Positions 18,428 to 54,758 of a stretch of DNA of 64,000 bases are shown one piece after another (the first letter of the stretch is position 1; every line of letters begins with the position of its first letter). Location: assembly GCA_001767455.1 (NCBI GenBank), contig MELC01000073.1:1-64000 (forward strand), given 5' to 3'. This stretch comes from Acidobacteria bacterium RIFCSPLOWO2_12_FULL_66_21 (GTDB lineage: Bacteria; Acidobacteriota; Vicinamibacteria; Vicinamibacterales; 2-12-FULL-66-21). Both the position numbers and the translations under genes were made by a program. The notes beneath the pieces are model-generated. The model was not told the DNA's origin, did no database searches, and saw only the letters and a program-made list of their open reading frames with translations.

Positions 18428-19957
18428 ATGCCCACGAGACAAGCGGGTCGGGCGGTGCTGGCGGCGTGGCTTGCCGCTTCGATCGTGAGCGCGCAGCCGA
18501 ATCTGCGCGCGGCCGTGCAGGCCTGGGTGGCGTCGCACCAGCGGCCGATCGTGACGGAGCTCGTCGAGCTCCTCGGGATCCCGAATTTCGCGCCCGATCG
18601 CGCGGGCATCCGGCGAAACGCCGGACATCTCCGCGGGATGCTCGAGCGGCGCGGGTTCGCCGCGGAGCTGCTCGAGACCCCTGGCAATCCGCTGGTGTAC
18701 GGCGAGTTGAAAGTGGAGGGCGCGTCGAGGACGCTGCTCCTCTACGCGCACTACGACGGGCAGGCGGTGGATCCGAAGCGATGGACGCAGCCGGACCCGT
18801 ACGTCCCCGTGCTTCGCACGGCGCGCGTCGATCGCGGCGGGCGCGACATGCCGCTCGGCGGCGTCACGAAGTTCGAGGACGAATGGCGGTTGTACGCGCG
18901 ATCGGCCTCCGACGACAAGTCTCCCATCGTGGCGTTGTGCGCCGCGATGGACGCCCTGAAGGCAGCCGGCCTCGCTCCGACGTCGAACATCCGCGTGATC
19001 CTCGACGGCGAGGAAGAGGCGAGCTCGCCGAGTCTCGTGCCGGCCATCGGCCGGTACCGCGACCGGCTGCGCGCGGACCTCATGGTGATTCTCGACGGCC
19101 CCACGCACAGCAGCGGGCGTCCGACGGTCGTGTTCGGCGCGCGCGGGATCGCGACGTTCGACCTCACCGTGTTCGGCCCGCGGACCGGCGTGCACAGCGG
19201 CAACTACGGCAACTGGATCCCGAATCCGGCGCAGCGGCTCGCGTCCCTCCTCGCGTCGATGAAGTCCGACGACGGCCGCGTGCTCGTCGCGGGCTTCTAT
19301 GACGGCGTGGCGCCGCCCGGCCGGGAGGAGCGGCACCTGCTCGACGCCGTGCCGGACGATTCCGGACGAATCCTCGAGGCGTTCGGGGTGGCGGCGCCCG
19401 AGCGCGCGTTCCCGAAACTGCAGGACGCGCTCCAGGCGCCGACGCTCAACGTCCGCGGCCTGGCGGGCGCGCATGTCGGCCCGACGGCCAGGACGATCAT
19501 CCCGGACAGCGCCACGGCGGCCATGGACATCCGGCTCGTCAAGGAGACGCGCGCCGATGCCCTGCTCGAGAAAGTGAAGGCGCACATCCGCGCGCAGGGC
19601 TACCATCTCGTCGACGGCGAGCCGGACGACGCGGCGCGGGCCGCGTACTCGAAGCTGGCGCGCGTGGCGGTGTCGGAGACCGCGATCAACGCGTTTCGCA
19701 CCCCGCCGTCCGACCCGCTGGCAGGCGGTGTGGTGGCGGCAATCCAGCGCACGTACGGGGCGGCGCCGGTGCAGCTGCGCACGCTGGGCGGCACCGTTCC
19801 CATCGCGCCATTCATCGACGCGCTCGGGTTCCCGGCCGTGATCGTGCCCGTCGTCAACTTCGACAACAACCAGCACGAAGAGAACGAGAATCTGAGGCTG
19901 GGGAACCTGTTCGACGCGATCGTCACGTTCGCGGCGATCCTGAGGATGCAGGTGTGA
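18428..19957 (+). CDS. Exported M20-family metallopeptidase
   Basis: A 509-residue di-zinc peptidase with signal peptide MPTRQAGRAVLAAWLAASIVSAQ. The metal-binding motifs are LYAHYDGQAVD (His108, Asp110), ARSASDDKSP with the bridging Asp, DGEEEASSP with the general-base and ligand Glu, and NNQHEENE with the C-terminal His. An inserted dimerisation domain shows RTGVHSGNYGNWIPNP. The family includes dipeptidases and carboxypeptidases of the PepV/CNDP type. GGAG precedes ATG 18428 by seven bases. It is 11 bases behind the TonB receptor and probably co-transcribed with it, suggesting uptake and cleavage of the same peptide class. Confidence 0.9.
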   Translation: MPTRQAGRAVLAAWLAASIVSAQPNLRAAVQAWVASHQRPIVTELVELLGIPNFAPDRAGIRRNAGHLRGMLERRGFAAELLETPGNPLVYGELKVEGASRTLLLYAHYDGQAVDPKRWTQPDPYVPVLRTARVDRGGRDMPLGGVTKFEDEWRLYARSASDDKSPIVALCAAMDALKAAGLAPTSNIRVILDGEEEASSPSLVPAIGRYRDRLRADLMVILDGPTHSSGRPTVVFGARGIATFDLTVFGPRTGVHSGNYGNWIPNPAQRLASLLASMKSDDGRVLVAGFYDGVAPPGREERHLLDAVPDDSGRILEAFGVAAPERAFPKLQDALQAPTLNVRGLAGAHVGPTARTIIPDSATAAMDIRLVKETRADALLEKVKAHIRAQGYHLVDGEPDDAARAAYSKLARVAVSETAINAFRTPPSDPLAGGVVAAIQRTYGAAPVQLRTLGGTVPIAPFIDALGFPAVIVPVVNFDNNQHEENENLRLGNLFDAIVTFAAILRMQV

Positions 19958-20021
19958 ACGGAGAGGCGTCGCTTAGAATGTCGGTCTTCGTCGGGCGTGT
20001 CCCGCTGCACGCGCTGACGGC

Positions 20022-20320
20022 TTTTCCGCACGAAGACCACGAAGGCCACGAAGGACACGAAGACAGTCGCGACGAGGCTGTGCCGTCGAGCCGCGCGCAG
20101 CGCGGCAAGGACAGTCGGAACCCGCACACGCAAGCAGCATGCGATCCCGAGCTGTTTGCGTGTGCCGGTTCCGGCTGTCCTGCACCGCCGGCCTCGCATG
20201 TCATGCGGCCGGCGCTCGACGGCGCAGCCGCGTTTGACGTTCCGTCGAACGACCGCACCTGAGGGTCTTTCGTCGTGGCAGTCTTCGTGAACTTCGTGTG
20301 CTTCGTGATCTTCGTGAAAC
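20022..20320. repeat. Large nested inverted-repeat element (cloverleaf-like)
   Basis: Outer arms: CACGAAG words in tandem (20029-20064, period 9) face CTTCGTG words (20281-20317), with flanking sequence also partly complementary. Inside, GCTGTGCCGTCGAGC (20077-20091) pairs with GCTCGACGGCGCAGC (20214-20228), 14 of 15. Within that lie three hairpins: 20090-20106 (7-bp stem, loop GCA), 20109-20138 with 20151-20180 (30-base arms, three mismatches), and 20186-20214 (GC-rich stem of 13 pairs). The result is a four-way junction about 300 bases long filling the gap between the M20 and pxpA genes. No protein-coding frame is convincing. A solo arm resembling its right half lies at 41761-41830. Confidence 0.75.
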
Positions 20321-20362
20321 GCCGTGGGCCCGTCTCAGCGCGGTTTGCTAAGAGATCATGTC

Positions 20363-21133
20363 ATGTCCACCATCGATTTGAACTGCGACATGGGGGAATC
20401 GTTCGGCGCGTACACCATCGGCGCCGACACCGAGGTGATGCGGGCCATCACGTCCGCGAACGTGGCGTGCGGATACCACGGCGGCGATCCCGGTGTCATG
20501 CGGCGGACGGTGCGGCTCGCGCGCGAGTCGCGCGTGGCCGTCGGGGCGCATCCCGGGCTGCCCGACCTGGTGGGATTCGGGCGGCGCGACATGAAGGTGA
20601 CGCCGCGCGACGTGGAAGACATGGTGCTGTACCAAATAGGCGCCCTGGCCGCGATCGCCGCCAGCGAAGGGGTGCGCCTCCAGCACGTCAAGGCGCACGG
20701 CGCCCTGTACAACATGGCCGTGCGCGATGCCGCGCTGGCCGATGCCATTGCGCGCGCGACGCATGGCTTCGACCCGTCGCTGATCCTGTTCGGGCTGCCC
20801 GGGTCGGAGATCGTCCGCGCGGGACGCGCGCTCGGGCTGACGGTCGCGTCCGAGGGATTCGCCGATCGCGCGTACGAGCCCGACGGATCGCTGACGCCGC
20901 GTTCGCGAGCCGGAGCCGTCATCCATGACGCCGACGCGGTCGTCCGCCGCGTGCTTCGCATGGTCACCGCGGGGACCGTGACCGCCACGGACGGGACGGA
21001 GATCGCCATGCGGGTCGACACGCTGTGCACGCACGGCGACACGCCGGGCGCGCACCAGCTCACACGCCTGCTGCACGACGGCCTCGAGCGGGCGGGGGTG
21101 ACGGTGGAAGCGATCGGGGGACGCCCGCGATGA
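20363..21133 (+). CDS. pxpA: 5-oxoprolinase subunit A (LamB/YcsF family)
   Basis: A 256-residue LamB/YcsF protein beginning STIDLNCDMGESFGAY, the hallmark start, with SANVACGYHGGDPGVMRRTV, AHPGLPDLVGFGRRDM and QHVKAHGALYNMA. PxpA with PxpB and PxpC hydrolyses 5-oxoproline to glutamate using ATP. pxpB and pxpC are not adjacent here; instead a transporter gene overlaps its stop by four bases (ATGA). It would act on pyroglutamate released by gamma-glutamyl and peptide turnover, consistent with the ggt gene. ATG 20363 is chosen at the family N-terminus; an ATG 39 bases upstream lies in the flank of the repeat element. Confidence 0.9.
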   Translation: MSTIDLNCDMGESFGAYTIGADTEVMRAITSANVACGYHGGDPGVMRRTVRLARESRVAVGAHPGLPDLVGFGRRDMKVTPRDVEDMVLYQIGALAAIAASEGVRLQHVKAHGALYNMAVRDAALADAIARATHGFDPSLILFGLPGSEIVRAGRALGLTVASEGFADRAYEPDGSLTPRSRAGAVIHDADAVVRRVLRMVTAGTVTATDGTEIAMRVDTLCTHGDTPGAHQLTRLLHDGLERAGVTVEAIGGRPR

Positions 21134-37910: not shown

Positions 37911-38798
37911 ATGAAGTTCACGTACGCGGCTGGCCTGGTCGTGTCGGCGCTCGCCGCCGGCTGCGTCACCGTCGATTCGCAGGGCCAGATCGTCCACGAC
38001 GAACGGCGCTACACGGTCACCGGCATCCCCGATGTACGGGTCACGACCTTCGACGGCTCCATTCAAGTCCGGTCGTGGGACAAGCCCGAGGTCCTCGTGG
38101 AAATCGAAAAGCGCGGCGCGACCCGCGAGGCGGTCGAGGCGCTCGAGATCACGAGCCGGCAGCACGGCAACACCATCGATTTGGAGGTACGCCGGCCGCG
38201 GAAGGAAACGCTGGAGATCGGCGTCTTCGGAACACACCGAAACGCCACGGCGAGACTCATCGTCACCGTGCCACAGCGCGCGAACCTTCGCGCGCGCAGC
38301 GGCGACGGCTCGATCCGTGTCGAGCGCGTCGAAGGCGGCATCGATCTGCGTTCAGGCGACGGCGGCATCCGTGCGATTGACGTCACCGGCGAGCTGACGA
38401 TCGATACAGGGGACGGGTCCGTTGTTGTCGACGGACTGGCAGGCAGTCTCGCGCTGCAGACCGGCGACGGCGGCATCGACGTGACCGGCAGGCCGACGGC
38501 GATTCGGCTGCACACCGGCGACGGATCGATTGTCGTGCGCGCGCAGCCGGGCACGGAAATGACCGGCGACTGGGATATCTCGTCGGGTGATGGTGGCGTC
38601 TCGGTGTATCTGCCGTCGGATTTCGGCGCCGACCTCGACGCGCACACCGGCGACGGCGTCATTCACAACGACCTTGGCCTGTCCGCCGAAAAGGGTGGCG
38701 AGGAGAGCCGGCGCACCCTGCGCGGCCGGCTCGGGACCGGCGGCCGCTCGCTGCGCATCCGCACCGGCGACGGCTCCATCAGGCTGCGCGCCTCGTGA
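37911..38798 (+). CDS. DUF4097-type beta-solenoid lipoprotein
   Basis: A 295-residue protein with a lipoprotein-type start (MKFTYAAGLVVSALAAGC). After a linker it has a repeated strand unit marked by GDGSI or GDGGI at about 20-residue spacing: SGDGSIRV, SGDGGIRA, TGDGSVVV, TGDGGIDV, TGDGSIVV, SGDGGVSV, TGDGVIHN, TGDGSIRL. The turns would stack into a right-handed beta-solenoid, as in DUF4097 and related adhesin-like proteins. It probably acts at the outer or inner membrane surface; the role is unknown. It is flanked on both sides by ATTCACC word repeats, and its last base lies in the 3' one. Confidence 0.85.
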   Translation: MKFTYAAGLVVSALAAGCVTVDSQGQIVHDERRYTVTGIPDVRVTTFDGSIQVRSWDKPEVLVEIEKRGATREAVEALEITSRQHGNTIDLEVRRPRKETLEIGVFGTHRNATARLIVTVPQRANLRARSGDGSIRVERVEGGIDLRSGDGGIRAIDVTGELTIDTGDGSVVVDGLAGSLALQTGDGGIDVTGRPTAIRLHTGDGSIVVRAQPGTEMTGDWDISSGDGGVSVYLPSDFGADLDAHTGDGVIHNDLGLSAEKGGEESRRTLRGRLGTGGRSLRIRTGDGSIRLRAS

Positions 38799-38913
38799 AT
38801 TGGTGAGTTGGTGAATTAGTGAATTGGTGAATTAGTGAGTTGGCTGGGACCGTCCGTCCGGACGATCCGAGCTGGTTGCCCTCAATTCACCAATTCACCA
38901 ATTCACCAATTAC
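38797..38913. repeat. Inverted tandem-word repeat, GAATTGGT words
   Basis: Left arm 38797-38843 consists of GAATTGGT/GAGTTGGT/GAATTAGT words (period 8). Right arm 38883-38913 consists of CAATTCAC/CAATTCAC words, the reverse complement. The loop holds the palindrome GTCCGGAC (38855-38862). The arms can pair over about 30 bases. It lies between the convergent DUF4097 and queC genes and may act as a two-way transcript end. Confidence 0.75.
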
Positions 38914-41689: not shown

Positions 41690-41760
41690 AAGCCAGGTTT
41701 TTGTCGACCGAGGTTCTCCCGGAACCACGTCAGGACTCGCGCCTGCTCTGGGCTGTTCCG

Positions 41761-41830
41761 TACAGTCTTCGTGAACTTCGCGAGCTTCGTGGTCTTCGTG
41801 CGTTGAGAGCCGTCGGCGCGCGCAGCGGGA
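41761..41830. repeat. Solo arm of the cloverleaf-like repeat
   Basis: Tandem CTTCGTG words with period 9 (41766-41801) are followed by GCGTTGAGAGCCGTCGG and a GCGCGCAGCGGGAC stretch. This parallels, in order and wording, the right arm of the element at 20022-20320. No left arm is present nearby. It lies in a 260-base gap between menG and the next gene; the rest of the gap holds CGAGCTGCGAACTGCGGG-type words at 41894-41911. Confidence 0.6.
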
Positions 41831-41949
41831 CACGACCGCTGGACATCTCGACACGCCAAACAGAGACGAAGGTAGAACGGGGAAGGCCCTGAGCCGCGAG
41901 CTGCGAACTGCGGGCTGCGTCACGTTCGAGCGTCTGCTACGATCGCGCG

Positions 41950-52587: not shown

Positions 52588-52597
52588 ACACTCGGCC

Positions 52598-52684
52598 GTG
52601 GCTCGTTGCTCGCTGCTCGTTGCTCGCAGTTCCCGAGCCCCGAGCCCCGAGCCCCGAGCCCCGAGCCACGAGCCACGAGCCACG
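52598..52684. repeat. Inverted tandem-word repeat, CGAGCC/GGCTCG words
   Basis: Left arm 52598-52626 has GCTCG words (GTGGCTCGTTGCTCGCTGCT and on). Right arm 52634-52684 has four CGAGCCC and three CGAGCCA words of period 7. The arms are reverse complements and can form a stem of up to 28 pairs. It lies in the 209-base gap before the sufA-like gene. The rest of the gap (52685-52796) shows TAATATAGGACT (52731-52742) as a possible -10 region. Confidence 0.7.
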
Positions 52685-52796: not shown

Positions 52797-53123
52797 ATGG
52801 TGCAAATCAGCGAAAACGCGGCCCGGCTCATCAGGAAGATGACCCAGAAAAACGGCATTCCTGACGGCGGACTGCGCATCGGCATCAAAGCCGGCGGCTG
52901 CTCCGGGTTGAGCTACACCTTCGCCTGGGAAGCCGAGCCGAAAACCGGAGACCACGTGTTCGAAGGGGCCGAAGGATCCCGGATCTTCATCGATCCGAAG
53001 AGCTTCAGGTTCATCGACGGCACCACGCTCGATTACGACACGAGCCTCGTCAGCAAGGGGTTCATCTTCAGCAACCCGAACGCGAAGTCGACGTGCGGGT
53101 GCGGGACATCGTTTAGCGTGTAG
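52797..53123 (+). CDS. sufA: A-type iron-sulfur carrier (SufA/IscA/HesB)
   Basis: The 108-residue protein has the three conserved Cys of A-type carriers: Cys35 in IKAGGCSGLSYTF and the C-terminal pair Cys100 and Cys102 in KSTCGCGTSFSV. IRKMTQKNGIPDGGLRIGIKAGGC and FIDGTTLDYDTSLVSKGFIFSNPNAKSTCGCG are typical. It would receive clusters from the SufBCD scaffold and pass them to apo-proteins. It is the first gene of the SUF run (the symbol is chosen by context). ATG 52797 is preceded by AGGAAT. An unusual repeat separates it from sufB. Confidence 0.92.
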   Translation: MVQISENAARLIRKMTQKNGIPDGGLRIGIKAGGCSGLSYTFAWEAEPKTGDHVFEGAEGSRIFIDPKSFRFIDGTTLDYDTSLVSKGFIFSNPNAKSTCGCGTSFSV

Positions 53124-53126
53124 TGT

Positions 53127-53232
<106 letters not shown>

Positions 53233-53240
53233 AAACTTCA

Positions 53241-54692: not shown

Positions 54693-54758
54693 GCAGGCCT
54701 GAAGGCCTGCGCTACGGGCGACACCCGTGGCGTCTGTAGCGCAGCCCTTTAGGGCTGC
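54693..54758. repeat. Paired REP-like hairpins between sufB and sufC
   Basis: GCAGGCC-TGAA-GGCCTGC (54693-54710) and GCAGCCC-TTTA-GGGCTGC (54741-54758) flank GCTAC (54711-54715) and GTAGC (54736-54740), which pair with each other. The two units are thus in inverted orientation, as in BIME-type elements. A single related unit lies at 45020-45042. Confidence 0.75.

Follow-up and report, generated by a model that had tools for sequence, protein, structure and literature searches.

REP/REPIN sequences with their RAYT transposases, and TIRYT/TIRtron elements, are intergenic, multi-copy palindromes thought to be moved by the enzyme of rare full elements (PMC3733652, PMC3116915). The element analysed here lies in a window of 64,000 nucleotides (the whole stretch of DNA analysed, positions 1 to 64,000 of contig MELC01000073.1 of Acidobacteria bacterium RIFCSPLOWO2_12_FULL_66_21), and is likewise intergenic, multi-copy, palindromic DNA. 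REPs, however, are palindromes of 20-40 bp with a GTAG/CGTC tag, whereas this element has a design of approximately 340 nt, with word arms and a cloverleaf; and, unlike in RAYT systems, the Y1 genes of this genome are unlinked to the element, the gene linked elsewhere being that of a PD-(D/E)XK nuclease. With MITEs it shares a short, gene-less sequence, terminal inverted repeats, many dispersed copies and absence from orthologous sites. It differs from them in the conserved four-way structure of its interior and in that no DDE transposase source was identified (the genes sought were GxxExxY and Y1_Tnp); no target-site duplication was seen by eye in a between-genera comparison. The double-hairpin elements of organelle DNA (cf. 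PMC5910586) are also mobile hairpin DNA without genes, whereas the window element is bacterial and chromosomal, has three hairpins on a closing stem and arms of iterated words, and is linked to a nuclease in relatives. Elements of the GxxExxY family (TIGR04256) have inverted arms of 7-bp words around an interior, and those of Acidobacteriota share the cloverleaf plan as well; the window copy, lacking a gene, is at most a gene-less relative of them. The terminal repeats of parvoviruses (AAV) have iterated recognition words in a hairpin-capped stem that occurs in two orientations; their likeness to the window element would be one of layout only.

We give a probability of roughly 55% to the window element being a gene-less, non-autonomous palindromic mobile DNA element related to the GxxExxY nuclease elements. 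The structure, the copy number, the covariation, the shorter orthologous gaps, the recurrent core inversion and the linkage to nuclease genes are observed, as described below, and support this reading.

The element is flanked on the left by a gene ending near 19957, which we take from its translation to be an M20-type peptidase, and on the right by a gene starting near 20363, presumably LamB/YcsF (pxpA), also named from its translation. The features are:

20000..20343, + strand: whole element (outer end, word arm, cloverleaf, word arm, outer end)
20000..20021, + strand: left outer end TCCCGCTGCACGCGCTGACGGC, alpha type; consensus common to most of 81 arms of the genome
20029..20062, + strand: left arm, four CACGAAG words with 2-nt spacers, period 9
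20080..20225, + strand: cloverleaf core, 146 nt, scoring 162.8 bits with covariance model R1
20082..20089, + strand: closing stem, 5' side, paired with 20216-20223; two-sided changes in the non-redundant set
20090..20106, + strand: hairpin H1, GCCGCGC...GCGCGGC
20108..20181, + strand: hairpin H2, long, with a conserved distal motif CAAGC/GTTTG
20186..20214, + strand: hairpin H3, CGCCGGCC...GGCCGGCG
20216..20223, + strand: closing stem, 3' side
20283..20316, - strand: right arm, four CTTCGTG words
20320..20343, - strand: right outer end, beta type
41720..41835, - strand: decayed half copy of the window element, with one arm and one outer end

In the arms, 7-bp words recur every 9 bp, and the inverted outer ends beyond them are imperfect. 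The initial annotation had placed the arms at 20029-20064 and 20281-20317, where they were found as CACGAAG words (20029-20062) and CTTCGTG words (20283-20316); the number of chance matches to the CACGAAGnn pattern expected in the window was 0. An extent of 20022-20320 had also been proposed: the element is there, but its ends lie further out, at about 20000 and 20343, because the end sequence recurs at most other arrays. The inner 15-bp stem reported earlier was present (20072-20091 with 20214-20233, 90%), as was the hairpin with 30-base arms and three mismatches (31-nt arms, 20108-20138 and 20151-20181, with three mismatches). The longest inverted repeat listed for the 64-kb window was 20029-20075 with 20270-20316 (47 nt, 83%). 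The locus was folded as RNA and as DNA, and both energies were far below those of shuffles: -233.7 kcal/mol vs. -147.0 +/- 5.4 for RNA (MFE of 20000-20343, z -15.9) and -136.6 vs. -80.2 +/- 3.8 for DNA (same coordinates, z -14.8). The layered complementarity is not due to chance, as had been argued, and the four-way, cloverleaf-like fold, a closing stem and three hairpins, is far better than that of shuffled sequence. The element had been said to match no known named element, and Rfam indeed gave no family at gathering score; at the E-value threshold almost only miRNA-type hairpins were matched, all below their cut-offs.

At least nine near-full-length copies (75-88% identity by DNA search) and many arm fragments were found elsewhere in the same genome, and at the inspected sites the element lies between genes. 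In no other genome was the close sequence family seen; the element was absent from the plasmid records searched, and the literature searched by sequence word gave nothing informative. Exactly four words were present in 71 of the 89 word arrays in the fetched regions, and one outer-end consensus was common to most of the 81 arrays with at least three words. Where successive arrays were less than 400 nt apart, 23 of 38 were convergent and the remainder tandem. Element interiors measured between 32 nt (C22:47863) and 322 nt, and those of the smallest size lacked a core; arrays of words recurred in layers outside the arms.

One arm type was tandemly amplified at C24:23-631 and C89:20192-20880 (L013 and L014), mostly in steps of 95-150 nt; these satellite-like arrays lie near contig ends and may break the assembly. 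Three hairpins of the window (38795-38911, 52597-52684 and 53119-53240) have arms of tandem 7- or 8-bp words (AATTGGTG, CGAGCCA, CTGGAAG) and resemble the smallest word-arm elements.

The initial annotation had proposed a covariance-model search of the genome; a model (R1) built from 15 cores detected 43 distinct cloverleaf places (E 0.001 or better), many of them with a different closing stem and among CACGGAG-type words at less regular steps. The model also found copies in seven other genomes of the same order (G002, G004 (7), G006, G011, G052, G090 and G129). Their stem sequences are different, and in several of these genomes the flanking words differ again. A phylum-wide search, strictly filtered and scoring few candidates in each genome, gave none outside the order. 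In a set of 29 cores with identities below 80%, standard pairs filled 1400 of 1455 pair cells (96%, vs. 68% in shuffles) and two-sided changes were seen at 50 of 52 pairs. These counts lean towards structure, because the alignment was made to fit the model and a few of its rows are second-strand readings; given the effect size, this bias is unimportant for the main point. The H2 column pair 106-162 (alignment A4) is a conserved wobble and perhaps a recognition point: all 15 type I cores have G.U there, the type II cores mostly A.C, and most other genomes G-C.

The arms behaved differently from the core: the words do pair, but the 2-nt spacers between the words of the 9-bp repeats are mostly unpaired. 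In 19 elements with two four-word arms, pairing was 95% at word positions and 17% at spacers. After removal of similar elements, spacer pairing was 12%, vs. 34% when arms were exchanged at random between elements (a value as low as 12% arose in 0 of 5000 shuffles), so the two arms of one element differ at spacers more than chance allows. The core passes both checks set by the initial annotation (copies exist, and changes are compensatory), but the arm spacers are less complementary than chance expects. The simplest explanation is that perfect palindromes are removed; another is selection for internal loops. In gene-bearing elements spacer identity was 62%, in loci that were picked by arm similarity.

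The gap between the peptidase and pxpA genes, measured from the aligned gene parts, was 88, 43 and 38 nt in G003, G007 and G010 vs. 435-450 nt here, and the fetched gap sequences of these three genomes contained no element. At a second site (C15:18428) the gap was 126 nt in G010 vs. 657 nt here, and shorter too in G008 and G006. These comparisons span genera, so they neither place the junctions to the base nor allow a target duplication to be read; none was seen by eye in them, and a same-genus comparison (G004/G009) gave no clean insertion junction. The gap orthologous to that of the window element holds other short-word tandem arrays (AAAGCTG, CATCCGT) in G006 and G002 (L278 and L279), as if it often received word arrays. 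On the core tree, whose support values are moderate (0.6-0.99), alpha-beta and beta-alpha end arrangements (core frame) were interleaved, for example C64 and C24 within an alpha-beta group and C91 beside C79:97192; inversion of the core with respect to the ends, or an exchange of the ends, must therefore have happened repeatedly. A recombination site, one of the functions suggested earlier, is accordingly possible as a part of the mechanism, while the suggestion of a mobile palindromic element is supported by the many copies, the nearly empty orthologous sites and the compensatory changes.

GxxExxY (TIGR04256/PF13366, PDDEXK_3) is a small PD-(D/E)XK nuclease, and in related genomes its genes sit between inverted arms of the same word kind. 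A scan of species genomes covered 77 GxxExxY loci from many phyla; flanking inverted repeats above the 95% control level were present at 29 of them (4% for mispaired controls), and most of these repeats were words such as CACAGAG, CACGGAG, CACGAAG and CGCCAAG. In L170 (same region as L151) and L171 the cloverleaf starts less than 10 nt past the GxxExxY stop codon, with the second arm after it, and in L155 a reduced two-hairpin form lies approximately 10 nt after the stop; in all three it is on the same strand as the nuclease gene, 3' of its stop codon. In L220 the gene has a cloverleaf on either side, and in L152 it is flanked by two arm-cloverleaf-arm units with the plan of the window element. 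The cloverleaf plan beside a GxxExxY gene was clear only in Acidobacteriota; loci outside this phylum had no clear R1-like cloverleaf, so the cloverleaf may be a passenger. Eight plasmid records also contained GxxExxY.

In three genomes (L150, L170, L171) GxxExxY elements lie just after an upstream gene end that seems to be shared; as the preceding gene looks alike in L170 and L171, these two may go back to a single insertion. The GxxExxY frames of L170, L171, L172 and L177 have N-terminal stretches such as HRDTEAQR, which are the translated word arm, and the annotated starts there may therefore be wrong.

The predicted structure of GxxExxY was confident (pLDDT 93.4). Its best structural match was SSO0001 (4ic1; VIA-align Z 9.8), a Cas4 protein, and the next matches (Z below 8) were other restriction-endonuclease-like folds, including the Hjc resolvase (Z 6.9). 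The modelled fold is thus Cas4-like, with structural matches that do not separate Cas4-like from other PD-(D/E)XK enzymes. The nuclease profile gave no match among PDB sequences, and the literature searched held no described function for GxxExxY proteins.

We infer from the linkage that the nuclease recognises folded DNA, cuts it and drives movement, and we propose a route of copying. In what we consider the most likely mechanism, the GxxExxY nuclease would have as its DNA substrate the arm words together with the cloverleaf, either extruded or single-stranded; junction cleavage would free the element or copy it into gaps between genes, and resolution of the palindrome would invert the core relative to the ends. 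We put forward only tentatively the wider proposal that a single Cas4-like GxxExxY nuclease recognises both the 7-bp words and the four-way DNA cloverleaf and moves gene-bearing and gene-less copies in many phyla with no known transposase. Against the main reading, the elements are most abundant in a genome that lacks the proposed enzyme: the window's own genome had no GxxExxY match, and no GxxExxY gene was present at the fetched cloverleaf loci L107-L149. Activity here would therefore need a lost, divergent or foreign enzyme, and the family in this genome is probably stranded, since no GxxExxY gene is detectable there and the near-full-length copies show 75-88% identity to the window element.

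The cloverleaf might instead be transcribed and work as RNA, perhaps as an RNA-guided or RNA-binding pair with the adjacent nuclease. The very strong covariation, and the same-strand position after the nuclease stop codon in L170, L171 and L155, would suit such a function. RNA under selection should keep G.U pairs and avoid A.C mispairs; on the better strand of three core groups, however, G.U and A.C counts, leaving out one conserved wobble position, were 18 vs. 11, 21 vs. 13 and 20 vs. 21. As these are about equal, selection on the cloverleaf looks to be at the DNA level, by an indirect argument rather than a proof. The core is also found in either orientation with respect to the outer ends, and no Rfam family reached its gathering score. 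A structured RNA, also suggested in the initial annotation, is weakened by these results and we regard it as unlikely. Mobilisation of the hairpins as single-stranded DNA by a Y1 (HUH) tyrosine transposase of the RAYT or TIRYT type is slightly less probable still. Three Y1_Tnp matches are present in the genome, and RAYT-like genes flanked by inverted repeats (TIRYTs) have been reported in Acidobacteria (PMC3733652), but two of these Y1 genes have a different repeat, GCAGCCCTTTAGGGCTGC, on their flanks, the third has neither repeat, and the 3.7-4.5 kb stretches around them hold at most isolated arm words. A RAYT/Y1 transposase was thus set aside as the source of the element, its genes lacking linkage to it. 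At 54693-54758 the window has a palindromic GCAGCCCTTTAGGGCTGC-type repeat, of the kind flanking two Y1 genes (L291 and L292), which is probably an ordinary REP of the Y1 system.

The two remaining alternatives require no dedicated enzyme or no movement at all. Growth of the palindrome by template switching during replication, with recombination between word arrays, would account for the word-array layers outside the arms and for the tandem amplification of one arm type at the contig ends of C24 and C89; yet the three-hairpin plan is kept, with compensatory changes, over strongly diverged sequences and genomes, and 71 of 89 arrays have the four-word arm length, so that we find this origin improbable. 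A resident chromosomal structure of the host (a terminator, nucleoid or replication site) would agree with the intergenic position at inspected sites, but the element is absent from orthologous gaps in relatives and no other genome was seen to share its close sequence family; of all the explanations considered, a non-mobile structure seems to us the hardest to believe.

GxxExxY proteins occur in many bacterial phyla, and their linkage to arms and cloverleaf suggests a function for them: cutting folded DNA and moving a small selfish element. Palindromic non-autonomous mobile elements are an already known kind, but if the nuclease is the mover, these elements would together form a new class. That would also account for the word-repeat arms of a type common in bacterial genomes, and a nuclease-driven class would join the known ways in which short palindromic repeats spread.
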